From a virus: a DNA stretch of 64,000 bases. The first letter of the stretch is position 1. Each line of letters starts with the position of its first letter. The stretch spans positions 62,001-126,000 of IMG/VR virus record IMGVR_UViG_3300030329_006380. One strand, written 5' to 3'. The notes beneath the pieces are model-generated. The model worked only from the letters and a program-made list of their open reading frames with translations, searched no databases and was not told the DNA's origin. Both the position numbers and the translations under genes were made by a program. This document shows, one piece after another, positions 5,347 to 28,000 of the stretch.

Positions 5347-8300
5347 TCATTTTACATGATTCACGTAAGCGTAATTATCTTTTTTATCAATAATAATCTG
5401 AGTATCGACACAATCCTTCAATCCTTCGAGGTGAGAAATCAATAAAACTGTCTTGAAATACATTTTAATTATATCCAAGATCCTCACGAATCCCTCAAGA
5501 TTTGCTTCATCTAAAGCAGTTCCAGGCTCATCGAGAATAAATATATTCGGCTTGGGAAGATTAGAAACAGATAGGAAGGATAAACGAATGGCCATAGCTG
5601 CAATGGTTTTCTCAGCCCCAGATCCCATTGATATCGGTCGAGGCTCTTGATCCTCGTGTTTAATAAAAATATTCAATTGCTTTTCATCTTCCTCGAAATA
5701 AACTTCAAAATTCGCTATATTTGCCAAAACTTTAGCAATTTCATTGTTGATTATTGGAAGCTTTTTCTTAATGATATCATAAGAAATTCCACAATTATGC
5801 ATACATCTTAAAAATAAATCATATATTGTGAATTGTTCATGAGCTTCTAGATATTCTTCTTTCTGAACCGTGACACTTTCATACTTCTGTTCCAGTGAGC
5901 CATGTATTTTATAAAGCTCCAGCTTCTCTTCATTGCATTTTCTCAACTCAGAAGATAAAGAGTGTATGCTGTTTTCGATGGTATCTAATTCTCCAACCAA
6001 AGATTCGAGATTTTCAATAGCTTCCTTATTCTCCTCATACTCCTGAATCTTATCTTCATTCTTTTTTATTTCATGCTGTGTGGTCTCAAGAACAGCTTCG
6101 TTCTTATCGATTTTTAAATTAATCTGAATTGCTTCTTTTTCTATATTTGATTTCCTTTCAAGCACCTGTTGATATTTTTGAAGATGTTGATCATTTTTAT
6201 CTGGCTCCATATCTTTAATAGCTTGCTCAAGTCCCTCTGCTTGACCTTTGATATCTGCTAAATTATCTTCAATAGAACGCATGCTATCTTTGGCTTCAAA
6301 TGCGTCCTTTATAAAGCGACATGAAGAGTATTCATCACCACATGGCACCTGATTCAATAATTTAATTTTCTGGCTCTTTCTCTTGATTTCTTGATCAACT
6401 GACTGGATATTTCTTAAAATATTATCTAACTCTTGTTTTTTCTCAATAATCAATCCCTGTTTCTCTTTTATCTCTTCATACTTGAATGTTTCGAGAAAGT
6501 GGCCGATTTTTTCTAGAAGTCCCAGATTAGACTTAACATCTTGTCTTAATTGCTCATTTTTGGCCTTTAGAGAAGCAAATTTAGATGTATTATCGCTCAG
6601 AGCCTTTCGAACGGCTACAACATCGATTATCTCACTCGGAAGAGATTTTATCAATAAATTTATCCTCTGTCGCTCCTCCTTGAGAATATCAATTTTTGAG
6701 TCAATCTTTAAGCATTGTTGCTTCCTGTCTTCTATTTTTTCAAGACTAAAGTCTATTTTTTCTTGAATTTCTTTTAATTCCTCTGAAAAATCTCTATCCT
6801 GCAATCGTTTAATATTTGCTTTCAATAATGCCGAGTCTTCTTTTGCTAATTTAAATTTCTTATCAAATATCTCCAAATCTAAAAACTTTGCCAATATCTC
6901 CTTTCTCTTGGTGGACCCCTCATTTATAAAATTTAAAGCGCCCATTTGACTAGTCATCGAAGTAAACAAAAAATCCTGTAATGATCCAAAATACTTTCTT
7001 ATATTTTTATCAGTGTCGTTTCTTGTCAAGCCATTTAAATCAACGGTTTCTTCTGTTACCGTGTTCTCAACCGAAAAGTTTAAATCTGTTTTCGCTTCGA
7101 GAGTTTCCTTGCCCTTTAATTTCTTAACATATTTTTCTGAGTTTCTCTTGACCCTGAAAATATTATTCCCAACGGCAATCTCTACTTCTCCAATTCCATA
7201 ATCTTTCTTCTCGTTGATAATATTAAGATTTTTTCTTTCATTCTTCGAGGTACTGTTGAAGAGTGTATAGAGAATAGTATCGATAATGCTGGATTTTCCA
7301 GAATAGTTTTTACCAAAAATTCCGACGACTCCGCTAAGATTTTCAAAATCGATAATGTTGTCTTCCCCAAAATTAAACAAATTACTCCATTTCAGTGCTT
7401 TAAGCTTCCAGTTAACATTTCTCCCAATCTCTTCATTCTCTTCAATTAGTGTATTGTATTTTTTATTTAAATCATAGATCTTTTCTAATTTCTCATCACT
7501 GAGTTCGTAATCCTTGAGATAATCGGCAATCAAGTCTTTTTGAACGGCGATATCGCGAAGATCTTCTTGTCCAATCGATATACTGTCATCGTCCAAGTCA
7601 ACAGAAGATCCCTCCGCTTTATTGAGAAAAGTGACAGATTCAGGCTTAAATTTGGTCTTTGAGATCTCGACGGCACGTCGAAGCTTATCCAAAGGCAGGT
7701 TGTTCCTCGAAACCAATCGTAGCTTCGCATTTTCTGGTAGTGTAGTATTCTTGGGGATCCTTCCCTTCGGGGTTAATTCAATTGTAATAAAAGGGCATGT
7801 ATTTTTTACTAATACATGCTTAACTGTAAAAGAATCTTTATTTTCAATATCCCAAATCAAAAAACCTTTGTCGTTGGTTTCCCCATGGTTCTGTTGAATC
7901 AGACTGCCAGCATATCGAATTTTACCTTTCGGATCCAATGCTTGATTTGTCTTGTGGATATCACCCAGCATTCCATAATCGAATTCATTAAAAATATTCA
8001 ATTCCTCTTCACCATGCTTCATGACCCAGCCAACATCGGTTTGACACCCACTTATTGATCCATGATAAAGGGCGATATTTATTTTATCTTTATTTGTCGG
8101 AGTTATCCAATTATCTTTATCGAAAATAGATAAACAATTGAAAACGACACCCTCTTGTATTTCAACCTCTTCACTGTTTTTGATCAGAACAATGTTGGGG
8201 TTGTCTAAAGCCTCAACAACCGGAGTAACTGCGTCTTGACGATGAGCAGTTCTCAGATTTCCATCGTGATTACCTAGTATTACATATGTTTTTGCTATAT

Positions 8301-8508
8301 TGGATAATTTACAAAGGAAGTCTGAACATAAATCAAAGTATTCCGGACTTAATTGTGTTTTTGTGTGAGCAATATCGCCAGCAACATAAATTACATCAAC
8401 CTCTTCCCTCTCAAGTTTAATGTAAAGATCGTCAAAGCACTCACGATATTGTTTGTGAAATTTTAAATTTCTAATATGTACATCTGCTATATGAGCAATT
8501 CTTATCAT
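5347..8508 (-). CDS. Fused Mre11-Rad50 (SbcD-SbcC; T4 gp47-gp46) recombination nuclease
   Basis: One uninterrupted 1053-aa frame carries both halves of the recombination complex. Residues about 1-280 are an Mre11-type metallophosphoesterase: Asp9/His11 (ADVHIRN), Asp45 (GDIAH), Asn80/His81 (GNHDG), His149 (YHGS) and His185 (GDIHK). Residues about 365-1053 are a Rad50-type ATPase: Walker A GKNYSGKS at 399-406, Q-loop TSQMG near 519, long coiled coils, signature SMGSGAEKT at 960-968, Walker B IFILDEP at 989-995 and an LLISH H-loop. The coiled-coil apex has Cys723 and Cys730 (CGDEYSSC) instead of the usual CXXC hook. The complex resects DNA ends for recombination-dependent replication. GAGGGTG precedes the ATG. 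T4-like phages normally use two genes here. Confidence 0.93.
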   Translation of the reverse strand: MIRIAHIADVHIRNLKFHKQYRECFDDLYIKLEREEVDVIYVAGDIAHTKTQLSPEYFDLCSDFLCKLSNIAKTYVILGNHDGNLRTAHRQDAVTPVVEALDNPNIVLIKNSEEVEIQEGVVFNCLSIFDKDNWITPTNKDKINIALYHGSISGCQTDVGWVMKHGEEELNIFNEFDYGMLGDIHKTNQALDPKGKIRYAGSLIQQNHGETNDKGFLIWDIENKDSFTVKHVLVKNTCPFITIELTPKGRIPKNTTLPENAKLRLVSRNNLPLDKLRRAVEISKTKFKPESVTFLNKAEGSSVDLDDDSISIGQEDLRDIAVQKDLIADYLKDYELSDEKLEKIYDLNKKYNTLIEENEEIGRNVNWKLKALKWSNLFNFGEDNIIDFENLSGVVGIFGKNYSGKSSIIDTILYTLFNSTSKNERKNLNIINEKKDYGIGEVEIAVGNNIFRVKRNSEKYVKKLKGKETLEAKTDLNFSVENTVTEETVDLNGLTRNDTDKNIRKYFGSLQDFLFTSMTSQMGALNFINEGSTKRKEILAKFLDLEIFDKKFKLAKEDSALLKANIKRLQDRDFSEELKEIQEKIDFSLEKIEDRKQQCLKIDSKIDILKEERQRINLLIKSLPSEIIDVVAVRKALSDNTSKFASLKAKNEQLRQDVKSNLGLLEKIGHFLETFKYEEIKEKQGLIIEKKQELDNILRNIQSVDQEIKRKSQKIKLLNQVPCGDEYSSCRFIKDAFEAKDSMRSIEDNLADIKGQAEGLEQAIKDMEPDKNDQHLQKYQQVLERKSNIEKEAIQINLKIDKNEAVLETTQHEIKKNEDKIQEYEENKEAIENLESLVGELDTIENSIHSLSSELRKCNEEKLELYKIHGSLEQKYESVTVQKEEYLEAHEQFTIYDLFLRCMHNCGISYDIIKKKLPIINNEIAKVLANIANFEVYFEEDEKQLNIFIKHEDQEPRPISMGSGAEKTIAAMAIRLSFLSVSNLPKPNIFILDEPGTALDEANLEGFVRILDIIKMYFKTVLLISHLEGLKDCVDTQIIIDKKDNYAYVNHVK

Positions 8509-8517
8509 ACACCCTCT

Positions 8518-9222
8518 CTAGAGATCTCGGCAACACCGAAATCCCGTTTCATAAAATCTAAACAAATCTCCGTGATTGCTCACGGACTGTCGACAGTTTC
8601 GTGGCTCAGACCAGAACCTGCCTTTAAGTCTTCCGTTAAAATACCCCCTTCTGGTTTTTCTTTTCTTTGTCCACTCTTCCACATTCCCAAGCATATCGTA
8701 GACTCCGTAACCAGAGACACATCTCTCCATTGCGCCACTTGGTTCTGCCTGATATAATTCATGGATGTGGTTTGCCGCTTCATAAGAAATTGCCGAATGC
8801 TTTTCTGCATTGGACAATAACCCCAAGAAGCTATCAACCTCTGGATTAGAAAATCCTTTCCTCCAGACTCCAAGATAATATTTTGAATATTTTATCCATG
8901 TTTTACTGTCATTACACACTCCTTTTTCATATTTTGTCCCATATTTCCATGGCAAATCTTTTGGACCAACACAGGCTTTTGTCCACTCATCATCATAACA
9001 CAAGCGCTTGCCACGTGCCTGACACCATGCTTCACTCTCAACCATAGAATACATCACCAAAGGCTCGTCTCCTTTTTGATTGGGAGCTTCATATTTATCA
9101 ATACAAAAATCTTTTACTTTTATCATTCCCGCTGGACATGTTATTGTTTCCTCTGTTGCATAAAGAAAACCCATGCAAGTAAAAACACCAGTGAGTATAA
9201 CAATTGATGGCAACCTCTTCAT
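8518..9222 (-). CDS. Secreted FGE/SUMF1-fold protein
   Basis: This encodes 234 aa with an N-terminal signal peptide (hydrophobic stretch IVILTGVFTCMGFLYA, cleavage near ATEE). The rest matches the FGE-sulfatase/SUMF1 fold: ITCPAGMIKVKDFCIDKYEA, then AWCQARGKRLCYDDEW, a central YGVYDMLGNVEEW block and the closing GFRCC strand. Known members include formylglycine-generating enzymes, but many are non-catalytic ligand-binding relatives. It is rich in cysteines, suggesting disulfides in the periplasm. Its placement between recombination and primase genes gives no functional clue. I infer an exported protein acting on or binding envelope components rather than a true sulfatase activator. Confidence 0.85.
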   Translation of the reverse strand: MKRLPSIVILTGVFTCMGFLYATEETITCPAGMIKVKDFCIDKYEAPNQKGDEPLVMYSMVESEAWCQARGKRLCYDDEWTKACVGPKDLPWKYGTKYEKGVCNDSKTWIKYSKYYLGVWRKGFSNPEVDSFLGLLSNAEKHSAISYEAANHIHELYQAEPSGAMERCVSGYGVYDMLGNVEEWTKKRKTRRGYFNGRLKGRFWSEPRNCRQSVSNHGDLFRFYETGFRCCRDL

Positions 9223-10160
9223 GCAATCATCGTCCTATAAATCATATATTTTTCCATACTCATAAACTCTGCCTCCTTCTTTCTTTTCTGAAATTCCGAT
9301 CGTGGCATCTCTGCAACATCTTGATAGCCATCGGTGTCGATCTTAAAAACCTCGACGTCATATTTTAATAACTTTTCTATCATAGAGAGTGATTTCTTCT
9401 CCGCATCGCGGTCGAGCGCAATAAAAACCGAAGTATCGTTTTTTACTATTTCCCAGAATAACTTGGAATTTTCTGACAGCGTCGATCCCATCAAAGGAAT
9501 AGAATTTTCCCCTGCATTGATCGCGTCAAAGACGCCCTCCGTTATGACAACTTCTTTTGAGAAATCAACATATAATTCATTAAAAATAATTTTATTTTTT
9601 GCAACTCTGGGATTCATATATTTTCGCCAGTCATTAATATAATTTCTAGCAATAAAGAAATTAACTTTGCCCTCTGCATTAAAAGATGGTATTATAATTC
9701 TATCTTTAAAGATACCAGACACACAATAACCAATTTTCCACTTCAAGATATCTGCATTGGATACCGATCGATCTTTAAGATACTTTCGGGCCGGCATCGA
9801 AGAAAAAGCAATCTCTTTCGTACTCAACGGCAAGAAACCATCGGGAAGGTCTAGCGTTATCTCTTCCTCTTTTTCTTCCAATTGAAAAAGAATCTTCTCA
9901 AATTCACTGATATTGACTTTACGATCAAAGTTAGACCATTCGCGGCAATCTGTGAAATCCCCATATCTTTTAACAAGACGATAGATATTTTTTCCACGAT
10001 AATCGCAGACCCAGCATTTGAACACATTCTTCTCAATGTTCACGGAAAGCTTAAGTTTGTGATGATTGCATTGTGGACAGTGAAATTGATATTCTTTGGT
10101 GGACTGTTTATAGGATCCGAATATTTTCTGTAGAATTTTTAGTTTTGCAGTTGTTTCCAA
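9219..10160 (-). CDS. DNA primase (zinc ribbon plus TOPRIM; T4 gp61/DnaG-type)
   Basis: This encodes 313 aa that would synthesise RNA primers for lagging-strand replication. A four-cysteine zinc ribbon is at the N-terminus (Cys28/31 in CPQC, Cys49/52 in CWVC). The TOPRIM core has Glu208 in VVITEGVFDAINAG and Asp250/Asp252 in FIALDRDAEKK. A linker region (KYMNPR, IIIPSF) matches DnaG-type catalytic domains. The frame must begin with TTG at 10160 to include the zinc ribbon, since no in-frame ATG lies ahead of it. It overlaps the RuvC-like gene by 22 bases and the next gene by ATGA. The short length fits phage primases that lack a helicase domain. Confidence 0.92.
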   Translation of the reverse strand: METTAKLKILQKIFGSYKQSTKEYQFHCPQCNHHKLKLSVNIEKNVFKCWVCDYRGKNIYRLVKRYGDFTDCREWSNFDRKVNISEFEKILFQLEEKEEEITLDLPDGFLPLSTKEIAFSSMPARKYLKDRSVSNADILKWKIGYCVSGIFKDRIIIPSFNAEGKVNFFIARNYINDWRKYMNPRVAKNKIIFNELYVDFSKEVVITEGVFDAINAGENSIPLMGSTLSENSKLFWEIVKNDTSVFIALDRDAEKKSLSMIEKLLKYDVEVFKIDTDGYQDVAEMPRSEFQKRKKEAEFMSMEKYMIYRTMIA

Positions 10161-10675
10161 GTATTTAACCCCGAGCGTGCGATAATCAGCGAATCGGCCC
10201 GGTCATACGTTCCAGGCACAGGATTATCATTTCTGGTATATGATACCACGAAATCACGCTCGTTGTCAAGGATATATTCCAAAACAACTTGTTTTGCTTT
10301 CTGTCCGCGCATCACTTTGATACCACAGGACTTTCTTGCCGACACTGCTGCAAGAGGGGTAGGGGGCTCACCAAAAAGTTCATAAACAAGATAAGAGGTG
10401 ATGCCATTAATCTTAGAAAGCACTGAGAGAGTTTTTGCTGACGAAAATCCGGATCTGAATGATTGCAGACTCTCTTCAATGAAGACTTTCTCAATCTCAT
10501 AGCTTTCCTTGAGATCCAATAGTTTATTTTTTATAAATTCTGCTTTATGGAACAATGTTGGAAAGTGTCTTTTATTTCGCGTGTCCCAAGCTTCGCAATA
10601 TAAAATTTTTCCACTTTCATCAATTACTGTAGCGCCAGTGATGCTGGTACTAACGTCAAGGCCAAGAATATTCAT
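10139..10675 (-). CDS. RuvC-like Holliday junction resolvase
   Basis: This encodes 178 aa with the RNase H-like fold of RuvC: first strand with Asp7 (ILGLDVSTSITGATVID), an acidic residue in VFIEESLQSF near residue 67, and a C-terminal acidic pair in YDRADSLIIA. The protein would cleave branched DNA before packaging, replacing T4 endonuclease VII. It sits beside the primase and shares a TAATG junction with the upstream structural gene. Activity on replication forks or other branched DNA is equally possible. Confidence 0.88.
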   Translation of the reverse strand: MNILGLDVSTSITGATVIDESGKILYCEAWDTRNKRHFPTLFHKAEFIKNKLLDLKESYEIEKVFIEESLQSFRSGFSSAKTLSVLSKINGITSYLVYELFGEPPTPLAAVSARKSCGIKVMRGQKAKQVVLEYILDNERDFVVSYTRNDNPVPGTYDRADSLIIARSGLNTWKQLQN

Positions 10676-14070: not shown

Positions 14071-14078
14071 TATTTATC
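14071..14078 (-). promoter_or_regulatory. Candidate late promoter octamer
   Basis: The largest gap in the window (14010-14076) begins at a minus-strand GATAAATA, one mismatch from the T4 late consensus TATAAATA. It lies about 60 bases ahead of the ATG at 14009 and partly overlaps the upstream stop codon. A gp55-like sigma factor, which reads this element in T4, is encoded at 49053. The AT-rich background makes chance matches likely. Confidence 0.3.
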
Positions 14079-17000
14079 AGCGAATAATATCTGAAACAGG
14101 GGACTCTGCTGAAGTAGCCCTTCCTCTCATTCGCGCCTCCAGTTCTTCTAAGTTCACTTGTGGATCTTCGTAGCATGTCTCTTGTTGCACCGTTGGCTTG
14201 TGTATGTGCTTAAACTTAACATTAAAGTCTATTTTACGCCCTGTTGACTTAGATGTCAACCTAATTTTAAATTTTTGTCCATCCCAAATCGAATGATCAC
14301 TGTCTCCCATCGTAACTGGTATCGAAGATAGCTGGTCTGTTAAATTATCATATCTAGTACCATCATCAATTTGTGCTTGAATGTCTAAAACTGCGTTTAA
14401 AGTTTCTTCACGAGCTTGCGTTTGATTGACCGACGGTGAAATATATATATATTTTCTGGCCGGTTTTATATAATTTACTTCTTCAATCGGGAATTCAATG
14501 ATATCAATCCTAGGAAATACACCGCCATTGGTGTCAATTAATTCCACTTCAAAAACCGGAGATGGGTTTGATAAGTGACCATGCACGTCCTTAGACCTAA
14601 ACATATAATAATATTTTATATTTGGTCGAATTGTTTCATCTAAAAAGTCTATAGTAGAGGCTTTGAGATCACAAAGTCTTTGATGGTGATCAACTTCGAT
14701 TGTTGTGGCAACCTCTGCTATCATATTATCTTTAAAATCAATATATGCTGACGGTCTAGATGTCATCCTATAGACAAAAAATGACTCAATCCTGTCATCG
14801 CTGCGAAACATTATCGGAGAATCTTCAGGAAGCTCCTGTGCTTGTCTCACCGAGTCATACATGGCTTTTTCTATATCATTGAATGCTATGGGGTGTTGTA
14901 CTAATTTTCCGGGATTGTCACGTAAGAAAAAAGTCAACTTATCGGATCTTCCACGATGAGGTAATACCTCAACAACGGGCTGACAAGGTGGACTATCCAT
15001 TATAATGTTTTCAAATTCATGAAATGGAACTTCAACCATCTTTAAACAGGGTTCATAATGCACTTTGAATCTATAAGGATTAGTTAGATGTCTGGCATAT
15101 TGATATTGTGTCCCATATACAACTTGATAAGCGTATACTTTATATCGATACTTTTCTCCATACTTAACTTGAGTATCTAACCACTGCAGTACCTCTATTC
15201 TATTTGAATTAATTAAATAAAAATCTTGTATTTTTTCTTCTTTTTCTTCGCCGGCGACGCTAACTAGGGCATGCTTCTCTATCCTATAGAACATAGTCTC
15301 AGACTTGGCTTTCTTTCCGGCCATTATTTCTCGCCATGTTCTATTATATTGTTTCATCGAGCTTTTAATTTTTGCATTCATTAGAAATGAAAAAAGTTTT
15401 TGTTTAATTAAAGAGCCGGTTCTCAAAGAAGTGCTTGAATAAAACCAACTGCTGCCGCGGCTCAACTTAGAAAAGCCAAGATAAGTTATAATATCATCAC
15501 TTACAAAATCATAGGTGTTGGTGCCCCTTTCTTTAAAAAGTTGCAGCCAATTATTGAGATCCCACACCCTTAACATTTGTTTTAGGTTTTGAGTGCCCAA
15601 GTCGGATGTAAGACTAGAAGTATTTATACCGGACTCTTGGCCTTGTACTATTTTATTATAAGCGCGCCATGTAAGAATATCTGTCTGGAGTACTGGTCTT
15701 CCGTCAATTATTCCTCTTTGCCGCTCGGATCTATTGCCCCTATCTTCTGCTTCAGGGATTCCCTGAATTATCTCCTTGATCAAGGGAACATCATAATCAA
15801 ATTGAGTGAAACTACTCACTAAATCCGATTGATTAATCGGCGGAGTTTTAAAGTTAATTTCCAAAAACATAGGAAAATCATGTTTCTTCTGTAAACTAGC
15901 ATTATTAACATGATTGGATGTGGATAGAAAATCAACTTCTCCCGAAAGCATAACCATGTTTTTTTGTTTTTCCTTAAGAGACTCTAAAGGTTCATCGTCC
16001 TCCGGATAAAAAAGCGAAAAAGCATCAAAAAGATTAATACCAAGTTTTAATTCCGGCCCTGTACCTGTTTGCTTAATTAAAAAATTACTATCCATTATCT
16101 TGTTCAATGAAATTAGATTGTAAAGATCGGAGACTATTGGGGCCCAAAGATTGTCCCTCTTTACGCGTTCTATGAATGATAGCCAAACATAAAGGTTTGG
16201 TAGGGCGCGTTCTGGTATTGCTAGGTCTGAGATTCTATTTTCATATCTTCGAATATAATAATTATAGCGGCTAAAGGAATTAAAAACAAGCACATTTTTT
16301 AAATCCGGAAAGTCTTTAACAAAACGATCAGAAAATGGTAGGCTTATTTGAAACGTAGTATCGTAGTATATTTTATTTGGATTATTCGGTATTGTCGGTC
16401 TAAAATTATTTTCAAAGCCTCCTATACAATATTTTTCAAACAACCCCATGTCACCATTGAAATATTGCTGCAGTCCTTCTTGTGTGGGTTGTATGTTCAT
16501 CCTCTCAGTATCAGCCAGATCGGCAAAGGGCGTCGATGGCCAATTATCAATATCAACATAGTTTTCTGTCTCAGCCTCAGGATCCTGACTCACATACCCT
16601 ACACTAAAAACCCGTGGGACTGCCAAATCGAAACCGGTGCGTGTTCTGCGAATAGCACTTAGATCGTCCATCCACATTAATTTATTATCTTGATATATCC
16701 ACCCTTTCCTAGCCCTAAATCTAAAAATGTCCTCCATACTTGTCGTATCTAGGTGAGGATTCGTAGAGATCTGGCTCCACGGAATAGCACTAACTTGCCC
16801 TCCGGGAGCTTTATCGTCACTAACTCCGCCTGGTATCAGACCTGCCGTAAAAACCTCGGGCCATGGCTGATAAAGGCCAACATTTAAGGGGATCTGTCTC
16901 TCCTCTCCTATAGCAAATTCGCCATTGAATATTGCACTATCAATAAAAAGTGCATCTTGAGCGATGGATGTCGCCTCTGGTGAAAAACGTAATTCCGCAT

Positions 17001-17118
17001 CTTCTACCAATACCGGGTCTGGCTCAACAGGAGCGGGTTCCGGAGGAAGCTCGGGCTCAGAAATCTCCGGAGGACATACCAAGGCTCTCAATCTTTGTAA
17101 AAATTCACTCTCTGCCAT
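14077..17118 (-). CDS. Large virion structural protein (1013 aa)
   Basis: This encodes 1013 aa. A proline-rich acidic linker (PELPPEPAPVEPDPV) at residues about 22-36 follows a short N-terminal helix. The long middle shows no recognisable catalytic motifs. Residues about 630-900 contain repeated Tyr-rich strands such as VKYGEKYRYKVYAYQVVYG and NIKYYYMFRSKDVHGHLSNP, which look like fibronectin type III modules. The C-terminus (FKIRLTSKSTGRKIDFNVKF) resembles that of the 320-aa neighbour. GAGGTGA precedes the start. A tail or baseplate component is likely from its place in the virion block. Confidence 0.8.
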   Translation of the reverse strand: MAESEFLQRLRALVCPPEISEPELPPEPAPVEPDPVLVEDAELRFSPEATSIAQDALFIDSAIFNGEFAIGEERQIPLNVGLYQPWPEVFTAGLIPGGVSDDKAPGGQVSAIPWSQISTNPHLDTTSMEDIFRFRARKGWIYQDNKLMWMDDLSAIRRTRTGFDLAVPRVFSVGYVSQDPEAETENYVDIDNWPSTPFADLADTERMNIQPTQEGLQQYFNGDMGLFEKYCIGGFENNFRPTIPNNPNKIYYDTTFQISLPFSDRFVKDFPDLKNVLVFNSFSRYNYYIRRYENRISDLAIPERALPNLYVWLSFIERVKRDNLWAPIVSDLYNLISLNKIMDSNFLIKQTGTGPELKLGINLFDAFSLFYPEDDEPLESLKEKQKNMVMLSGEVDFLSTSNHVNNASLQKKHDFPMFLEINFKTPPINQSDLVSSFTQFDYDVPLIKEIIQGIPEAEDRGNRSERQRGIIDGRPVLQTDILTWRAYNKIVQGQESGINTSSLTSDLGTQNLKQMLRVWDLNNWLQLFKERGTNTYDFVSDDIITYLGFSKLSRGSSWFYSSTSLRTGSLIKQKLFSFLMNAKIKSSMKQYNRTWREIMAGKKAKSETMFYRIEKHALVSVAGEEKEEKIQDFYLINSNRIEVLQWLDTQVKYGEKYRYKVYAYQVVYGTQYQYARHLTNPYRFKVHYEPCLKMVEVPFHEFENIIMDSPPCQPVVEVLPHRGRSDKLTFFLRDNPGKLVQHPIAFNDIEKAMYDSVRQAQELPEDSPIMFRSDDRIESFFVYRMTSRPSAYIDFKDNMIAEVATTIEVDHHQRLCDLKASTIDFLDETIRPNIKYYYMFRSKDVHGHLSNPSPVFEVELIDTNGGVFPRIDIIEFPIEEVNYIKPARKYIYISPSVNQTQAREETLNAVLDIQAQIDDGTRYDNLTDQLSSIPVTMGDSDHSIWDGQKFKIRLTSKSTGRKIDFNVKFKHIHKPTVQQETCYEDPQVNLEELEARMRGRATSAESPVSDIIR

Positions 17119-17135
17119 CCGTTCACCTCTTCTTC

Positions 17136-20100
17136 CTAGTAATCACTAGCACCGCCTGTTGCTGGGCCCGTCATATATGTTGATGTGTTGGTGGCTCGGG
17201 GGCCGACGCCAGTGTTAGTTATAGTTCGTTGCACCGTAGCTTGGGGTGCTGCCGTCTGTGTTGTGACGCTGTTTAAGTTATCCCTCAGAAATGCTCCTTC
17301 GATTGCTGATCCATGAACTTCGTATTTTCTAGACACACTAGCATTCCTAGAAATAATCGCTTCCGCCTTAAGTCCAGAGAGTGGCTTAGGTGGTCTAAAC
17401 GTAGATGGGCGGAGAATAAAGTATTTATTATAAATAGGCATCTGTAGTTTGCTCGAAGAGTTGACACCAAACTCCGGCAACTCGTAGGGCACTAATCTAC
17501 AAATAAACTCCTGATCGCTATTTGTTATCTGTTCCATCCATCTGGAAGTGATAGGCACCCAAATAGGGCGACTAATTGATTTCCCCATGTATCCGGATAA
17601 TACCTCTACTCTAACTAGAGTTTGGTGTTTGAAATAAACCTCCAGTAGATCCTTGGTGTTGTTTTTAGCGTCCTTGGAGCCATTAAAATAATTAGCACTA
17701 CTATTCAGTGCATCAGTTTTGTTTTGTGCGCTTAGTATTAACGACTTGATTTGGTTTGGGAGATTCTGCACCTTACTAGTCAACAGGTTTTTTCTTTCTG
17801 ATTCTGTTGGGGCGCGGATGCCCGATTCTAAATCGGTCAAACCCTTGACTGGGCTAAATGTTCTGAAGGAATCCAGCGGCCGAACACTGGATCTAGATGA
17901 AGAATCTTCCATCTGTTGCTTAGTATGAAAAATACTAGATTGTGCTAGATTAGCCAAGACTTCTGGCATAAAATTATTAGCATCGTCTTCATTATGAATA
18001 TCACCCAGTGCACTATCTAGCATGATTACCGGCAACTCTAGAGTTGTTTCTTTTGGCGTTGAAAAACAAGTACCAAAACTGGTGTTAAAAAAATCTTCTA
18101 CATTAGCCGCAACTGTTGCAACGTTAGTGGCTGCCCTAGAGTTGCGCCATGGTGCGCGAGATTGACGCTGATTTAATATCGTTACATTAACATTCGATTC
18201 ATTTGCCAAGTGACCTGCCATGGAATCTGCCGCCATAATCTCTTCTCTTTGGGTGTCAGTAATTATCATCTTTTTATTGGACGGCACATTAGAGAGTTTC
18301 GGCGCCGTTCGCGGGATTGATGATAAAGAATTAGATGGCTGCGCAGATAAAATATCAGCAACAGCAGAAATACTAGCATTATTTTTAAAATTATCAACAG
18401 AAAAAGCTCTATTGGGGCTAGATCCGGGAGTTCTTATAATATTCGGTGATAAATAAGTATACCTTGTTCTTTCTGTGGAGTCCTCACCGTCGACACCATC
18501 AATTGAAAATGTTGTATCTGGTTTGAAATCCCTAGCAACCTCTTGTCGTGTCCTGTTGATATAATCTGCTGCAGTGAAAGCTGTGAGGCCCATACTAGTA
18601 TTGCTAATTTGTCCGCCTTCGCGTTCGCGTTGATTCGCCATCTCGGTCGCTTGGCCTTTAAAGCTTTCAACCGGAGCCGTCGATAAGAATTCCAATCCAG
18701 GAGACATAGTTTCTAAAATAGAAGTCACGTCGTTATTAAAATATTTTTTTAACTTAAAGGATCTAATGGAATGGTTCTTTAAACGAGTAGTTCCCGATGC
18801 ACCAGTTACTTCATCTGGCTCATGAGAAACCTTTGATTTTACATTGACTCCTATAGCACTCTCTATAATTTCTATAATTTGGTCAGTCATCTCTAAAACA
18901 TCCAATATCCCATCGGGACTTCCAGAGCTATAGTGCACTGCATAAAACATCAATTCAATTCCGTTGGAGCCAGCAGAAAGAAAGCTCTCTAAAGTTTGGC
19001 CCGTTATGACATTAAAATACGCAGCCATGGATGTTATAGCTTCTTTTGCTAATTCGTTATAGCGCTGAAATTCTGCTAACTGATGACCGGAAGAATTAAA
19101 TCGATTTGTTTTACGGTTATAGTTCCCCCTCATAATCGAAAATTTATAATAAGCTGATAAAGATGCTCGGTGATTTTTAAGTTTGCTATAAATTTCCTGT
19201 AAATATCTAACCGATCCGTCTTCAATCTCCACCTCTACAGCATATTGGTAATTCCCATATCCCTTCTCTTTTAGTTCACCATCCACTCCAGTATATGTAT
19301 AAATTCCCGAATTTGGGTTCCAGTTAACCTTACGAATGATGTTTTTAGAAAAGGAGCCCGATGGAACATGAACATTCATCGATGCATCTGACAATAATCT
19401 AACCACAATATCTTCTTTCGGGTTGTTTCTATCAAAAGGAGTAAGGCCAGACTCTCCAAAAAGATTAATTGAGTCTCTAGCCTCTAGAGTCCTTTGAGAG
19501 TCATTCCTACCTCTCAATATTGCCGGCGCCTCTTTTACCCGCCGGCGAATCACATCGATCTTTTTAATTTTGAAATACTCTTCAATATCTCCGGGCACCC
19601 GAGACAGTACTTCCGGAAAAATACATTTGTCTTTTGCGGCAGTAATATAATCAAACTGAAACATAAACATGTGATTATCATAATGATCGTTCGAGAGCCA
19701 AATATCAGAGAAATATGATTTCTCCTTGCTCCATTTATAATAATTCTTCCCTTTTGTCACTCTACGCATCATCGAGTCATGCATCGATTTAAAAGCGGGG
19801 AAACGAAGTGAAATATTATTGCTGTATTTCTTAAACTTCTGAGATGCTCTTCTATCTTGTACCCTTGTATCGAAAACATCAACTGCATATAAAAACCTTG
19901 AAGAATTACTGTGGCTTTGACCCGTCATCCAAGATCCATTTTCCATTTGATGCGCTGGTCCAGTATAAACTGATTCCGAACTAAGAGATGCTTCACTGAA
20001 TAACGCTACGGATTTAGTATTTAACTTTTTATCATGAAAAACCGTTTTTGTTATGACTTGACTAGCCATTGAAGCTAACTCAAGAATTATGCTGGTGTTT

Positions 20101-20939
20101 TCGTTGGCGGCATCAAAAAGAGGGGGGTCATCAATCTCAGACATCAAGCCTGCATCTCTCATTAAGGAATTAACATCTAGGTAAGAAATAACAAAATAAG
20201 TTAAATGATTCGGAGTAAAAGCTGGAAGAGTTGTGTCCGTTGTCATTACCCTCTCTCGATCCTCTGGCTTAGCCAGCGAATAGGACACATCTGGGTCATG
20301 AGCATCGTCAAAGTTGAGTCTAAATCTATAACTGTAGACAGATTCCGATCCCGGCCCAGAAACCTGCATTATGTTCTCTTCTATATCTTGCATGCTTATA
20401 CTAAATAAATTCATATTGCGTGCGCGGCCAATTTTTAAGTCCTTTGCCCACCCCTCCACTAACTGCTTACTGTACAAAGATTTTTGATAATTATCCCAGT
20501 TAGCTGGAGTATTCAGAGTGCTGACTTTATAGGCGGCCAATTTCTTTATCATATAAGAATAACCAAAGGGAGCGTATTTAAACACATCAGCTTCTTTCCA
20601 TAATTGCGTCATTTCAACATCAGTGCTCTGAATGGCTATAACTTTTATATAATCTTTAAAGGAATTAGGTGGGCCGTTTGGATCTACTTTAACATCACCA
20701 AAGAGACCATGGTGTCTAGAAAAAAAATTATCATGACCAACTTTCTCTTTCACGCATAAATCCAGAGATACAGAAAGTCCAGGATTGGTAGTCAATTCCT
20801 TATTAACTATTTCGGACCACTGTGCGCCGCCCGGATCTTGTGAAGATATTGTTTTCTCCTTAGAACTACGAGAGGTATCCAAAGTGATTTTATCAATATA
20901 AGCTGTCGGGGCGCCATGGCCATGCAATAATTCAGTCAT
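17136..20939 (-). CDS. Large virion structural protein (1267 aa), family unrecognised
   Basis: This encodes 1267 aa with no signal peptide, membrane helix or enzyme motif that I can identify. The N-terminal two thirds is mixed alpha/beta with many aromatic residues. The region around residues 800-1000 is low-complexity Ser/Asn/Arg and probably flexible. The C-terminus is Thr/Ala/Gly-rich (TNTSTYMTGPATGGASDY). It has a TAATG overlap with the upstream 365-aa gene and only a 17-base gap to the next. Its location between known baseplate genes and other structural genes supports a virion role. Nothing ties it to a specific T4 protein. Confidence 0.78.
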   Translation of the reverse strand: MTELLHGHGAPTAYIDKITLDTSRSSKEKTISSQDPGGAQWSEIVNKELTTNPGLSVSLDLCVKEKVGHDNFFSRHHGLFGDVKVDPNGPPNSFKDYIKVIAIQSTDVEMTQLWKEADVFKYAPFGYSYMIKKLAAYKVSTLNTPANWDNYQKSLYSKQLVEGWAKDLKIGRARNMNLFSISMQDIEENIMQVSGPGSESVYSYRFRLNFDDAHDPDVSYSLAKPEDRERVMTTDTTLPAFTPNHLTYFVISYLDVNSLMRDAGLMSEIDDPPLFDAANENTSIILELASMASQVITKTVFHDKKLNTKSVALFSEASLSSESVYTGPAHQMENGSWMTGQSHSNSSRFLYAVDVFDTRVQDRRASQKFKKYSNNISLRFPAFKSMHDSMMRRVTKGKNYYKWSKEKSYFSDIWLSNDHYDNHMFMFQFDYITAAKDKCIFPEVLSRVPGDIEEYFKIKKIDVIRRRVKEAPAILRGRNDSQRTLEARDSINLFGESGLTPFDRNNPKEDIVVRLLSDASMNVHVPSGSFSKNIIRKVNWNPNSGIYTYTGVDGELKEKGYGNYQYAVEVEIEDGSVRYLQEIYSKLKNHRASLSAYYKFSIMRGNYNRKTNRFNSSGHQLAEFQRYNELAKEAITSMAAYFNVITGQTLESFLSAGSNGIELMFYAVHYSSGSPDGILDVLEMTDQIIEIIESAIGVNVKSKVSHEPDEVTGASGTTRLKNHSIRSFKLKKYFNNDVTSILETMSPGLEFLSTAPVESFKGQATEMANQREREGGQISNTSMGLTAFTAADYINRTRQEVARDFKPDTTFSIDGVDGEDSTERTRYTYLSPNIIRTPGSSPNRAFSVDNFKNNASISAVADILSAQPSNSLSSIPRTAPKLSNVPSNKKMIITDTQREEIMAADSMAGHLANESNVNVTILNQRQSRAPWRNSRAATNVATVAANVEDFFNTSFGTCFSTPKETTLELPVIMLDSALGDIHNEDDANNFMPEVLANLAQSSIFHTKQQMEDSSSRSSVRPLDSFRTFSPVKGLTDLESGIRAPTESERKNLLTSKVQNLPNQIKSLILSAQNKTDALNSSANYFNGSKDAKNNTKDLLEVYFKHQTLVRVEVLSGYMGKSISRPIWVPITSRWMEQITNSDQEFICRLVPYELPEFGVNSSSKLQMPIYNKYFILRPSTFRPPKPLSGLKAEAIISRNASVSRKYEVHGSAIEGAFLRDNLNSVTTQTAAPQATVQRTITNTGVGPRATNTSTYMTGPATGGASDY

Positions 20940-22036
20940 TAGTCACAAGGATCCTCATATTCTTCAGGTCTATAGATATTGGGCCTGATTGATGGGGCAA
21001 CGCCCTCTTCACATTGAATTTGCAAATCAGAGAAAACATCATTCTTCACGCCACCTTCAATTATGTTGCGGCATAATACCGGAGGATCTATTTCCTCGTC
21101 AACAAAAAAATCAAAATAATATTCAACATCTGTCGGTGATGCATCCCCGGTCAGCAATGTTGTTATATCGTCCATTCGCGACCCCTCAAAAAGTGTCTCT
21201 GATTCTGGAACGTCGATTAAGATACCGTCAACAACTAAATTTCTTGTTGGGTCCTTCTTGAATCGCAATGGCTCAAGTTGAGCCGGAACTGTTATGTTTC
21301 CGGAAGTATCAACCTCTGCCTCTTTCAATACTTTAAATATCTCAATATCAAAATTTTTTCTTTGTAATGCATCTGCATTTTCTTCTAAAACCTCTAAAAC
21401 AATATGATTTTTAACTATCTTTACATACGCTGTTTGATCTTGCTGGGTGATTGTTAAATCATCCAAAACCACTTCAGAATCGTGACCGGGATCATCAAAA
21501 TCATCAGCACCAACAAAACCTCTAAATCCTAAGGACGATGTCCAATATGGCTCAATATTTATTTGAGGTATTTTTGCAATAGATACCCTATCATCCCCTA
21601 TACTGCCACTAATCTTAGATGATAGGGCACGTATACTCCACTGTGGGGCCTTCTGATTGCTGACAGAAGAATTCCCAAGCGGCGAGGATAGTGAATAAAA
21701 TTTATCCTTCACTGGCTGTATTGGCTCTGAAAGAAGCACATTCCTGCTTTCGGCGGGCGAAGATCCAAATTTCTTCTCCATTTTTCTATTAATATCAACA
21801 AATTCAGACTCGATTCCATAGTACAAATATTGAGCCTTGGTTCGAACAGTTTCTTTGATTCTCTGCACAATATCATTTTGATTCTCTTCGAAGCCGCCAT
21901 ACTCGGAATCATACAATATATCATCATCATAGAAGGCATAATAAACCGGCTTAAATAAACCACGGGATAATTTTGCCTTCCCAAATTGTGTCAACTCTAT
22001 ATCAATAACTTCTTCTTTTTTATTAAAAAAGGTCAT
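20939..22036 (-). CDS. Virion structural protein (MTFFNKKEEVIDIELTQFG family)
   Basis: This encodes 365 aa. The start (MTFFNKKEEVIDIELTQFGK, then YYAFYDDDILYDSEY) parallels the 320-aa protein at 13047 (FLDNSGDIILDAVLTDTG, then KYFALSDDEIDY). This suggests the two are ancient paralogues: an N-terminal strand pair, a TxxGxxxL turn and an acidic DDDI/DDEI motif. The C-terminus is acidic (YRPEEYEDPCD). It overlaps its neighbours by ATGA and TAATG. Similar openings are known to me from marine phage structural genes; the precise role is not known. Confidence 0.8.
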   Translation of the reverse strand: MTFFNKKEEVIDIELTQFGKAKLSRGLFKPVYYAFYDDDILYDSEYGGFEENQNDIVQRIKETVRTKAQYLYYGIESEFVDINRKMEKKFGSSPAESRNVLLSEPIQPVKDKFYSLSSPLGNSSVSNQKAPQWSIRALSSKISGSIGDDRVSIAKIPQINIEPYWTSSLGFRGFVGADDFDDPGHDSEVVLDDLTITQQDQTAYVKIVKNHIVLEVLEENADALQRKNFDIEIFKVLKEAEVDTSGNITVPAQLEPLRFKKDPTRNLVVDGILIDVPESETLFEGSRMDDITTLLTGDASPTDVEYYFDFFVDEEIDPPVLCRNIIEGGVKNDVFSDLQIQCEEGVAPSIRPNIYRPEEYEDPCD

Positions 22037-25000
22037 TCGTTTATACCTTCATGTATTCTTGATTTTTCGTGGCCCTCTGGAATTTCATCGGGCTCGGAAC
22101 TTAATGCAACTTCAGCCTCTAGATTAACTAATTCAACAAAAGAAAAATAATCATACGGCCAATTATAACTATATCCCCTTGTGACCGCATGATTAACATT
22201 AGTCATGGGAGAGGCACCAACACGATTTAATAAATCAAGCCTTTCAAGCCTTTTTGTCAGCGACATACCAGGAATTGGAGTATAATCCGTAAGTGTCGAC
22301 AGCTTGACTGCATCTCCATAATTATTTAAAGCTCTTTGCTTTACCTTAAAGACCATCCATCTTAATTCTTTTCCCACTTTTTTGGTGGGATCAAAAAAAG
22401 CAGTTCTCAAACTAGGATGGACCACCGAAATTTCAGAAACGTCGGGTATACGGGCAGACTCCTCATGAGAACTGTGGCCCGTGGGTATCGGACCCCTTGT
22501 CTTGTTAGTTGCTGGTAAAAGATTTTGCCAAATATTCGCTAAATCTTGACCAGAAAACTTATAATTAAATTCAAACACAAACATCACTGCCGGAGTTACT
22601 TCCTCAAATTCAACAAAATTAAAGGAAGGCGGAAAGACATACTTGTCCATCATTGCAACAATATTCACAATAGACCTGTGCGGAGGGTCGTCAATGACTT
22701 CCTGTGGTATTCCGGTGAAATCTAATTCACTTGTGGCGCCTTTGAGTTTCTTCTTGGCATATTCTATGTGATCGCGTGGGATAGTAAAAAATTCCTTTTC
22801 ATTGCTGTTATTTAACATAAAAGGCACAGCAACAACTGCTTCGAAAACTTCTCTGGTTTTCTGGGGCATGTCGCCAATCTTGATTTTGGCGCCGCCACCA
22901 ACAAATTGCGCTGCTGTTCTAAAAGTTTCTCCCTCCATCGAAGAAAATCCCAAAACTTTCGCTAGGGATCCAGTCATTGTATGGTCGGTGGCGAATTTAT
23001 AGTCCTCAACCGAAAGATATATACCCTTATCCACACTCGGCAAAGATCCATACTGATGCCACATACCGCGGGATAAACATTCGCTTCCATAAGCTCCAGA
23101 TGTTACCGAGACACTTTGAAAATCTAATACCGGGCATTCAAATTTTGGCGAAATAACCCACTGAGATTCGGGATTCCCCGAGGAAGGATCGTTTGATATT
23201 GACTGTATGCCACCTGCTTCCGAAAAGGATATCTGCTTTCTTTTAACAATGTTAAATAGATTAACAGAAGAATCCAATTGCATTCTTTGGGCGCCTGGCC
23301 CAGTATATACATATGCGAAGGAAAAAAAGCCCTCCTCGTGAGCAGGAGTAGATCTTCTAAAAGTTACACTGCTGGAATTGATGATCTCCATTAAAGTATA
23401 TTCTTTATTTTCTAGAACAGTATCGCCGGCCGGGAAAGTGATAATTGCTTGTGCGCCCTTCTCTGTTCCAAAGTAAGGAGGTGTATGAGGCCAATAAACT
23501 GAGGCGGTGTTGCTATAGTTTGTAGGTATGCTAAGTACCCCAAATTGAACAGCGCTTGGCGGACCAAAAGCCGATGCTCTATTGTACATTGTAAAATCTT
23601 TTGTTTGCCTTAGATTTATTTCCATCGCATATCTACCAAAACTTTGATTATCGAAACTTATTTTATTAACCGGTTTGCTAACAATGGCGCCTGGTCCTCG
23701 TTTTTTTAAAAAGAAGTTCATCGTCTCAGCCAAAAAATTATTCATTGCAATGCTGTAAAGAGGGTCAGGTTGAACAGACGGATTAAAAGAAGCCGTGAGA
23801 TTAAGAGAAGCAGACGGATGAGGTTCATTGTCAATTATCTTAATTGATTGATTAGCAAGACTTGCGCCACTCGGGCCTGGAAAATAAATTTCCGGAAACA
23901 TTAACCCTTCAAAAGGTATTCGGTCGTCATAGTTTTGTGCAATGGACATCTGAGGTACGTGCTCAGGAATTGTTGAGGTGCCAACACTGGCAGAAGGATT
24001 TAGTTCCGAAGACACATGCACAGGGTAGTCAACCGCTATGCCCGATTTAATACTATTAAAAAGAATTCCGGGAGCATACAACGCAGAGGCTATCGGCCTG
24101 TATCTAACGGGCGCAGTTACTCTTTCATCATCTGAATCTGCGCCTGACGATGTCAGCGCGTTAGCATATGAACTAGAAAACAAGCTTGCAACTTTCAGCG
24201 CTCTTTGCGCAGGATAAAAGCCTTCATATGGTAAAAATTTCTTAAAAGCCTTACATGTTAGTGTGATGGCAGAAGCGTTATTGGATTCATGGTCTTTCCG
24301 GAACACATCAAAAAATTTCATAAAATCAGAATGTAGATATTCGCGACAAAAGGAGCTAAACGAACTGTCACTCGATGCTGCGCCGGTCAAAGAAAATAAA
24401 GAATCTCTTGTTGCAGAGAAATCCGACAAATTGTCTTTAATATAATATTCTAAGTGCTCACTTATTCTAAATTCTGGTATGAGACTATATTCTTTTCCTT
24501 GGGCGCGCATGACTTCCGCATATGATTCATATGAAGTATAATATGGTTCTAATCCAGACTGCGTGGCTGCCTCCCACATCGTGTCGCCGGCTATTTCAGG
24601 AAATGATGCAGTTGCTGCATCAGAAACTGTTCTTCGCGCATACACGGCGCCGGCTTTGAGTTTATACTCGTTTGCTGGCATCAAGAGAGAACCGGAATGC
24701 CAACGCACGTAAGATGCCTGGAGTGCGCCTGCGCCATCAGTTTTGTTGGCATACCCCGGAACTGCTGTTGCAAAATCTGCTCTTGCATCCAGCGGCCACA
24801 CGCTTTCGGTTGGGATTGTTTCACCAAAATCGTTAATACGATTAGTTTTTGTTCTATCAGCACGCGTGGAGTTCCAAAGATGATTATATGTAAACTGCGT
24901 TCTTGCACGTGTACCAGAAAGATATGTATTTGCCTCAGCCGGATATACAATTTCTCGATATATCATATTCCTGAATATGCTTTTTCCTGCTGGAATATTG

Positions 25001-28000
25001 CCAAGTCTTTCGCGTTCAGAAGGAGAACGGAAATTTAAACTATAATCTTGGTACAGTTGATCATAAGTCTGGGTTCTCTCATCATTGTCTGATCCGAACA
25101 ACTCCAGATTCAGATCTCTATTTGTAAATCTAGTTTTGTTGTTTCCATAACTGTGATCGACTTTATATCTAAGGCCCTCGGGGGCGCCGGCAACAGCAAA
25201 TTCATGGCTAATATATTTATGTTTTGATGTTATCGGAGGCTCTGTATATTGCTTGAGAGAGGTACTTTTGGAAAATTTGAAAGTTGCTCCCTCGTGGGCT
25301 CTCTCTTCTGTTTTCACTATTGAGAATCTATTGTGTTGGACCTCGTCTCTTCTAATTGGATGATTTCTTCCTCTGATTTGCTTCCAAGAGGGCCAGCCAT
25401 AAGGACCTTGGCGATGGTGGATGAGAGCGTTTAAAACACCAGCATAGGAAACCCAAGACGGCCAGTCCGCGTTCCTTTTAATGGTGGAGATATTCTGATA
25501 ATTCGACAAATCATCAAAATCACCACCAATACAGTTTGTCGGGCAATCAAAACTAGAGTATCCTAAAATATTACTTGAAGCTGTTATTGGTTCATATATA
25601 TGATAATTTAAGCCGGCGAAATCAGTACGTAAAAACCCAGTTGCACTCGCTGCGTCAGATTGTGCCAGAGTAATACCAAATTCTCGATTCGGATACGGAA
25701 CAGTACTACCGAGTTCACTCGCACTCAAGAAGTTAATCTCATCTTCTTCCAGCGCATGGCCAAATGGTAAAGAAGAAGCAACCGCGGAGGCGGTTATCCA
25801 TGCATATCCCGAGTCTTGCGCCGGTATTGGCCTTTGGATAAATTCATTATCATATATACTGGCTGTGGAAAAAGCGCTGCCATCGCCTGGATCGCTGGCT
25901 GTATCAAATCCCGCATTGTATTTAATGCGGCGAAAACCATTTCTTTGAATTTTTCTAAAAGATGCCGAAGGTGCAGAAGTATACCAACTGGCAACATCAT
26001 CTTCGTGAGACGAATGGCCGCCCGGGCCACAATGTATTGAAGCAAAATCATTTAAAACCTGACGAACGTTAAAGTTTCTATAATTCAAGCAATTATAAAT
26101 AGAATATTCGGCTGATAGGGCGTCGAGGCCGGGACCGCCATCAGTATCACCCATAGTTTCGGGGCCACCAGGAGCAGAAAATCTTTCAACGATTACATGT
26201 TTCCCGCGGGCGCGTATTGGCTTCGTATAATCCTTTAACCCACCAACTAAACCAGAATCTGCGGTCGTACTTAAATTAAAACTATCTTTTGCGAAATCCA
26301 AATCACTGGATTCTAAATCTCCGCCTTCCGTATCAACAAACCATCGATTGTTGAGTCTTCGATTGGAAGTCTGGACAATCTGATAATCCTTTTCATAATT
26401 TCCTAGGAAATTTGATGCAGTAGTGTGCTGAATGTTTTTAATATTAATCGGTCGCCTTGACGTGCCGTCTTTATAAAAATCAGACCTAGGGAGATGATAT
26501 CTAGCATTACCAAATGGATTGTTTCTCGGGTTAACGATCTTCAGCTTAGTTGTGTCAGCATAAACTCTAAACGCTTCTGCGCGTGTATCTTGCGTATCTG
26601 TACCATCACTAACAAAATTCGAACGATGGGGCATGCCACCAACATGAGTTCTAGTGAATGGGCCCTGCAGTGGTCTCTCATACTCCGGGCCGTAAACATC
26701 TTCGTGAAGGCCGGTTATATCAATTTTAATACTCTCCGGAGTGCTTAAAGTATGCAGATCGGTGACACCATAACCAACATCTACGGATGAGCTATAAATA
26801 CTAAAGGGAAAAGCCATATCTCCGGTGGGGGCTGCATCACCTGCGCCGTCTTGTATTTGAACATCTAGCTTTTCTTTTTGTATGAGTTCTGAATAATCGA
26901 CTGTATTGATTCTTCTATCGATAAATAGTTTTGAGGAACCATCTCTTGTTATAACGTTTGCCTGTAAAGTTGAATTTGCTCTGCCGCTTTTATATAAATC
27001 ATATTTCTTTTGCGTAGGAAAGTTCACGCCACCTTTAATGTATTTGTCATGACCAAACGTTGTTCGCAAAGCAGTTTGTCTTTTTCTATCGGTTGTACGC
27101 TGAAGAACATCGGCAATTGTCTGTCGACTTGTATCAACAGAAGTATCACCGCTAGTCAAATCAGGATCACTTCTCTCTGTTCTAGTTTTCCACCACAGCA
27201 CATTATCTTTCTGAGACTTTGAAATAGGAGCGTGACTAACACTCCAGTTATCTGACATTCGTGCAAAAGATTGCTTGTACAGTGGTATATTAACATTGTC
27301 ATCATCGTCAACTGACATTTGTTCTGAAATGCCTTTGGCAACACCTTCAATAATGTTAAGTTTTTCTTCTATAGTGGGGAATTTAGCTCTATATTTATTT
27401 CTCTCTAGAATATGACTCTCAATAACATTCTGTACATTATCGGGCATTCGTGCAGAAACCGGCACAAGCTCCTTAATAAGTTTATTAAGCGCACTATCAA
27501 ACCAGCGATAAAAATCAATAAACCTTTCGACATCCGGAGTATTAGACACTTTAGAAAAGAATATTTCCCTTAATTTTTCTAAACCTTTATACCCGTCACG
27601 ATAGCGATGTACTGGGTCGCCAATTAAATTACTAAAAGCTGCAATCGTAGAGAACATATTAATCATCTCTTCCGAAATATTTTGATACATGCTTTTTTCA
27701 ATCGACAAGAAGTAAGTTGTTGGTCTCTCGTCTCTACCAAAAGTCTCCTCAGCGGATCCAGTTATGATATTTACCATATCATAGCTATTCATAATCTCAG
27801 GTAAGGATTTCTTTGCGGATTGTACATGTTCAACCACAATCGCGCCGTTATGATCGGTCGGGAAATCATAGCCAACGCCGGGGTGGTGAGTCAACGCTAT
27901 TTTTCCTATTGTACCATAATCACCTTGCGCAGTTGTTGAGCCTGACGAAATGTCAGTAACTGTAAAGGCTTCAACTGAAGAATCTCCGGATCCAGTAAGA

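Follow-up and report, generated by a model that had tools for sequence, protein, structure and literature searches.

The window analysed here is a 64,000-nucleotide stretch of DNA, positions 62001-126000 of a 136,483-base linear IMG/VR virus record (a genome fragment). On its minus strand, an open reading frame of 1053 codons (5347-8508) runs from an ATG to a stop codon without internal stops, and encodes the nuclease Mre11 and the ATPase Rad50 as a single polypeptide. The gene, its parts and its upstream neighbours are as follows.

5347..8508, minus strand: Mre11-Rad50 (SbcD-SbcC, gp47-gp46) fusion gene, 1053 aa (open reading frame, Pfam, PHROG, homologues, AlphaFold2)
7621..8508, minus strand: Mre11/SbcD nuclease and capping domains, residues 1-296 (Pfam Metallophos; match to structure 7dog)
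7954..7965, minus strand: G182-D-I-H185 catalytic motif (GDIH in 143 of 145 intact fusions)
7435..7551, minus strand: two helices at the position of the Rad50-binding helix-loop-helix of Mre11, residues 320-358 (AlphaFold2)
7411..7434, minus strand: true Mre11-Rad50 junction, residues 359-366, with invariant R363-N364 (alignment, AlphaFold2)
6829..7410, minus strand: Rad50 N-terminal ATPase lobe, residues 367-560 (Pfam AAA_23; Rad50 structures)
7291..7314, minus strand: Walker A motif GKNYSGKS, residues 399-406 (sequence motif)
6352..6828, minus strand: ascending coiled-coil arm, residues 561-719, about 160 aa (AlphaFold2)
6310..6351, minus strand: apex loop QVPCGDEYSSCRFI, residues 720-733, with hook cysteines C723 and C730 (alignment, AlphaFold2)
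5827..6309, minus strand: descending coiled-coil arm, residues 734-894, about 160 aa (AlphaFold2)
5350..5826, minus strand: Rad50 C-terminal ATPase lobe, residues 895-1053 (phmmer match to P. furiosus Rad50, 3.3e-10)
8518-9222, minus strand: small FGE-sulfatase-like gene (formylglycine-generating enzyme fold), between primase and fusion (Pfam 1.9e-14)
9219..10160, minus strand: DnaG-type primase, conserved neighbour upstream of the fusion (phrog_47 5.9e-39; TIGR01391)
10139..10675, minus strand: RuvC-like Holliday junction resolvase (phrog_159 2e-7)

Within the single frame, Pfam places Metallophos at residues 1-156 (E 2.7e-10) and AAA_23 at residues 372-592 (E 7.7e-13), NCBIfam matches sbcd at 3-86 and sbcc/Rad50 at both ABC lobes, and PHROG 77 (SbcC-like) spans residues 183-1049. 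Sequence comparison with solved structures leads from the N-terminus to Mre11/SbcD and from the C-terminal lobe to Rad50. A full-length AlphaFold2 model, with 57 full-length fusions as input (mean pLDDT 82), matches Staphylococcus aureus SbcD (7dog) over residues 1-296 (Z 25.9, rmsd 3.0, 274 aligned) and Rad50 (5dny) from residue 364 (Z 31.3, rmsd 9.4, 354 aligned). The preliminary description had placed both sets of motifs in one 1053-aa frame with Mre11 first; reading frame, Pfam, NCBIfam and AlphaFold2 structural matches all agree with this, and the HMM domain assignment that it had proposed as a check gives Metallophos/sbcd N-terminally and AAA_23/sbcc C-terminally. The Rad50 part has the bipartite ABC ATPase of canonical Rad50/SbcC, with Walker A, signature (SGAEKT, 963-968) and Walker B (FILDEP, 990-995) arranged around a coiled coil.

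The covalent connection between the two halves is much shorter than the linker of about 80 residues first proposed, most of which is Mre11's own Rad50-binding helix-loop-helix (HLH; 320-358). In the AlphaFold2 model, helices at 320-330 and 338-358 occupy the HLH position and follow a disordered loop (about 300-312), so that the junction is confined to about residues 359-366, some eight residues; most Rad50 structures align from fusion residue 367, which corresponds to Rad50 residue 1. Of 112 aligned homologues, drawn from many metagenomes, 111 have exactly 81 aa in the segment 320-400, whereas the loop between cap and HLH (297-319) varies in length from 10 to 24. Judged from the alignment, the junction is not a loose tether, its length being fixed and R363-N364 invariant.

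The catalytic motifs are invariant across the aligned fusions, including D9, H11, D45, N80, H149 and H185. When these are mapped by motif, not by superposition, onto the metal ligands of P. furiosus Mre11 (D8, H10, D49, N84, H173, H206 and H208), the motif order puts Asp183 at His206. Aspartate is able to bind metal, and it also takes the second motif-V histidine position in some unfused phage SbcD. Given this histidine-to-aspartate replacement, the activity could differ from that of model Mre11. Aspartate likewise replaces His206 in Mimivirus R555 (PMC3175470).

Mre11-Rad50 fusions as a kind are already known, and the present gene fits their original description closely. R555 was identified as such a fusion along with twelve more in bacteria, plasmids, eukaryotes and Bacillus phage 0305phi8-36, defined by SbcD-type and SbcC-type domains in one frame with the nuclease first (Yoshida, Claverie and Ogata 2011; PMC3175470). 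These fusions keep the HLH and have linkers of 9-12 residues, and most were argued to reside in aquatic viruses, probably phages; hook, zinc and cysteines go unmentioned in that paper. The window protein shares the domains, the order and the retained capping and HLH regions, with a linker of about eight residues. R555-type fusions also carry the aspartate for His206, whereas R555 itself is longer (1351 aa) with a long coil.

Related fusions are widespread in viral contigs. A protein-pattern scan, unselected for the hook, returned 98 relatives, of which 80 were kept; 69 of the 80 have a single full-length frame. With later additions, intact fusions number 145 loci, a total that includes the one in the window and counts a few contigs twice. 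The search for the same fusion in other phages suggested in the preliminary description thus yielded about 140 other intact loci, among them a 735-kb uncultured phage with a version of 1202 codons and Microcystis phage Mel-JY01. The Mel-JY01 protein (WWT39521.1; PP395634) is a single 1067-codon fusion beside a DnaG-like primase, as here, is 29% identical to the window protein, and carries a C-X2-C hook (DPKCKHC). Of the two things that the preliminary description had named as counting against it, that the fusion is common and that it is already characterised, the first applies: the fusion was described in 2011 and viral contigs hold many such genes, although no biochemical characterisation of any such fusion was found. 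In a fold search of viral proteins (BFVD), giant-virus proteins of fusion length rank at the top, with Tenacibaculum phages among the matches. GTDB genomes contain only four fusion loci, all in MAGs and likely phage sequence, and no plasmid record covers 80% of the fusion. A MAG chromosome assigned to candidate division WOR-3 (CP070664.1) holds the N-terminal two thirds of one fusion, adjoining a primase-type ORF, and the C-terminal half of another elsewhere (L084, L085); these fragments are either what is left of a prophage or phage sequence that was assigned to the MAG in binning.

Two-gene systems are also among the closest known counterparts. T4 gp46-gp47, SPO1 gp21.9/21.3, Bacillus SBSphiJ and cyanophage gp46/47 have the same domains, the same order where the genes are adjacent, and a presumed role in recombination. 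Unlike the window fusion, T4 gp46-gp47 and other phage SbcC/SbcD pairs are encoded as two separate polypeptides, with C-X2-C hooks where these are visible. E. coli SbcCD and the Mre11-Rad50 of P. furiosus and T. maritima resemble the fusion in fold and domain architecture, but consist of separate chains with a CXXC hook, and the coil is longer in SbcC and Rad50. In a tree composed of fused rows, nuclease-split rows (discussed below) and seven phage gp46/47 pairs, the fused and split rows fall on one side of a starred branch and the seven pairs on the other.

The apex of the coiled coil carries the hook cysteines as C723-X6-C730 instead of the canonical C-X2-C, a spacing that had been noted at the outset and is confirmed in the sequence. 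The two coil arms, each separating the apex from an ATPase lobe by about 160 residues, are connected by a 14-residue loop (720-733) that contains both cysteines. Modelled separately with 81 sequences, residues 655-800 form a confident helical hairpin around this loop, with a mean pLDDT of 93, and about 80 in the loop. Scoring of 72 hook-unselected loci gave 48 with C-X6-C or C-X7-C and 24 with C-X2-C, the latter in two forms at the same alignment place (DPxCxxC...KFV and CxxCxPL). P722, C723, C730, F732 and A736 are invariant in all 48 C-X6-C (or one residue longer) sequences, in which coil columns average 44% identity. A degenerate DNA pattern for the C-X6-C hook matched at least 120 stretches, and all 120 that were listed lie in fusion-type frames or fragments; loci found by this pattern were kept out of the hook-frequency estimate. 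The C-X6-C hook is a conserved class that was not found described: open-access literature yielded no non-CXXC Rad50 hooks, which counts as a weak negative.

By the proposed mechanism, the tips of two coils would join through shared metal binding, the C-X6-C hook replacing C-X2-C. The main alternative is that the tip is not a metal hook, with the cysteines playing a structural part within one chain or dimerisation occurring through other contacts. Known Rad50 hooks are, to our knowledge, all CXXC, as are those in the literature reviewed, and in the full-length model the inner structure of the apex loop is predicted without confidence (pLDDT <50). However, the cysteine pair is placed at the very apex of the coil, with equal arms on either side, and both residues are invariant although the coil otherwise varies freely. 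The 14-residue loop is also the size of the 14-residue minimal hook of canonical Rad50, and relatives without C-X6-C have C-X2-C at the same place, so that a cysteine pair is always kept. The non-metal alternative is considered improbable on this evidence, while still deserving some weight. A C-X6-C tip that functions as a zinc hook would be a natural exception to the CXXC rule for Rad50 dimerisation; the dozens of C-X6-C sequences and their near-identical CXXC relatives amount to a ready-made experiment on hook requirements.

Hook class does not simply follow clade. The starred branches of a tree built from the nuclease plus the ATPase lobes require the C-X6-C class to have changed at least five times. 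Between pairs with 90-97% identical heads, coils are 56-95% identical where hook class is shared and 39-44% where it differs. In three pairs (L038/L047, L057/L076 and L035/L078) the ATPase and nuclease domains are nearly identical, while the distal coils diverge strongly and the hook classes differ. L038 falls inside the CxxC group in the head tree and outside it in the coil tree, and its DNA is mosaic, with an identical 5' flank followed by a drop; together these support recombination for L038, an 11-kb contig that could be chimeric. Recombination was not accepted as the sole cause of hook differences: synonymous sites in the head are near or at saturation even where proteins are 97% identical, and strong head conservation combined with fast coil divergence therefore explains part of them. 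The differences are read here as probably reflecting fast coil evolution together with at least some intragenic recombination. More speculatively, the coil tip may be an element that varies and confers specificity. Phages with nearly the same nuclease and ATPase domains have at least three types of hook (C-X6-C, DPxC-X2-C and C-X2-C-PL), which would replace one another by recombination or very fast divergence, so that each hook pairs chiefly with hooks of its own type rather than with host SbcC or the fusion of a co-infecting phage. This suggestion is tentative and the balance of probability lies against it; were it true, C-X6-C would be the first non-CXXC Rad50 zinc hook. The overall interest of the locus is modest, and would be higher if the C-X6-C hook binds metal and pairs selectively.

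It is very unlikely that the frame is read as two proteins, through an internal start near the junction or later cleavage, with the fusion only nominal. The ancestral arrangement, as in T4 and other phages, is two genes, and one of the three in-frame TTG codons between codons 300 and 430, codon 377, is preceded by a weak 4-base purine-rich stretch. Against this, the same interval contains no in-frame ATG or GTG, and the gene no internal stop, the features that the preliminary description had named as a sign of two proteins. A start at codon 377 would fall within the first Rad50 strand region and remove the N-terminus of the ATPase lobe; an internal start was rejected as unlikely. The constancy of junction length in 111 of 112 homologues also speaks for a single chain. 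Misassembly or gene decay as the source of the fused frame can be practically dismissed: one relative (L042) has an in-frame stop within Mre11 and another contig (L167) has several frame breaks, one near residue 363, but the frame recurs in about 140 independent loci, with the 81-aa segment across the position in question (near 7400) constant in all but one of the 112 aligned homologues, is one annotated CDS in the complete isolate genome of Mel-JY01, and is under strong purifying selection. Estimates of dN/dS for the L038/L047 pair are 0.008 in the nuclease (dS 0.49), 0.022 in the cap, HLH and junction (dS 1.9, imprecise) and 0.014 in the C-terminal lobe (dS 1.25, imprecise), indicating such selection on both halves. 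L042 is a 160-kb contig whose fusion is intact apart from this stop (L042:6595-6597), which may represent sequencing error, decay or recoding.

Some relatives have secondarily lost the single frame. Six forms about 30% identical to the window protein (L101, L131, which equals L212, L140, L195, L213/L215 and L102) are broken inside the nuclease, just past the LGDIH motif and not at the Mre11-Rad50 boundary; a re-split locus (L208:2944-7166) was listed with them. The first gene comprises residues 1-187 and a new tail of about 30 residues, and the second, which opens with a start codon of its own, covers the remainder from the AYPG strand to the HLH and Rad50. The two overlap by about four bases (ATGA or GTGA) in most split forms, with a small ORF between them in L102. 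Four split forms placed in the tree make up one group (SH-aLRT 97) nested among unsplit fusions, which shows that the fusion came first and was split later. In the 484-kb phage LR756508, placed on a different branch, the frame is broken at the same point, with a 305-codon ORF carrying a TnsA-like nuclease domain between the parts; this split is apparently independent of the distant split clade. Insertions of mobile nucleases that leave genes in pieces are known from other phage genes, and such an event is a plausible origin of split Mre11.

The genes around the fusion also bear on its role. A primase-type zinc ribbon lies upstream of the fusion in 68 of 70 related loci with enough sequence. 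A RecA-family recombinase is encoded in the same virus record outside the window (G000:C1:28670-29470; E 1.6e-38), and no second AAA_23 (Rad50-like ATPase) or metallophosphoesterase was detected in this 136-kb linear fragment. The recombinase, the adjacent primase and RuvC-like genes and the lack of a second copy were counted in favour of a role in end processing. The gene very probably specifies one polypeptide that constitutes a complete Mre11-Rad50 (SbcD-SbcC) enzyme. Two chains would form the usual M2R2 head, with each HLH probably contacting Rad50 within its own chain. Mre11-Rad50 enzymes are ATP-regulated nucleases that also tether DNA ends. By analogy, the likeliest role in the phage is that of T4 gp46-gp47: the fusion would resect and tether double-strand ends for RecA/UvsX-type recombination-dependent replication and repair. 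As suggested initially, fusion would fix the stoichiometry at 1:1 and may alter the opening of the complex. The fixed 8-residue junction offers structural work on head opening a single-gene, obligately 1:1 Mre11-Rad50.

In phage proteins, folds such as that of the small FGE-sulfatase-like gene between primase and fusion are found either in enzymes or in modules that bind carbohydrates or receptors. Elsewhere in the window, two very large ORFs of 2912 and 2964 aa (22033-30771 and 34495-43389, minus strand) and two further ORFs of 1013 and 1267 aa (within 14077-20939) have no PHROG match at 1e-3.
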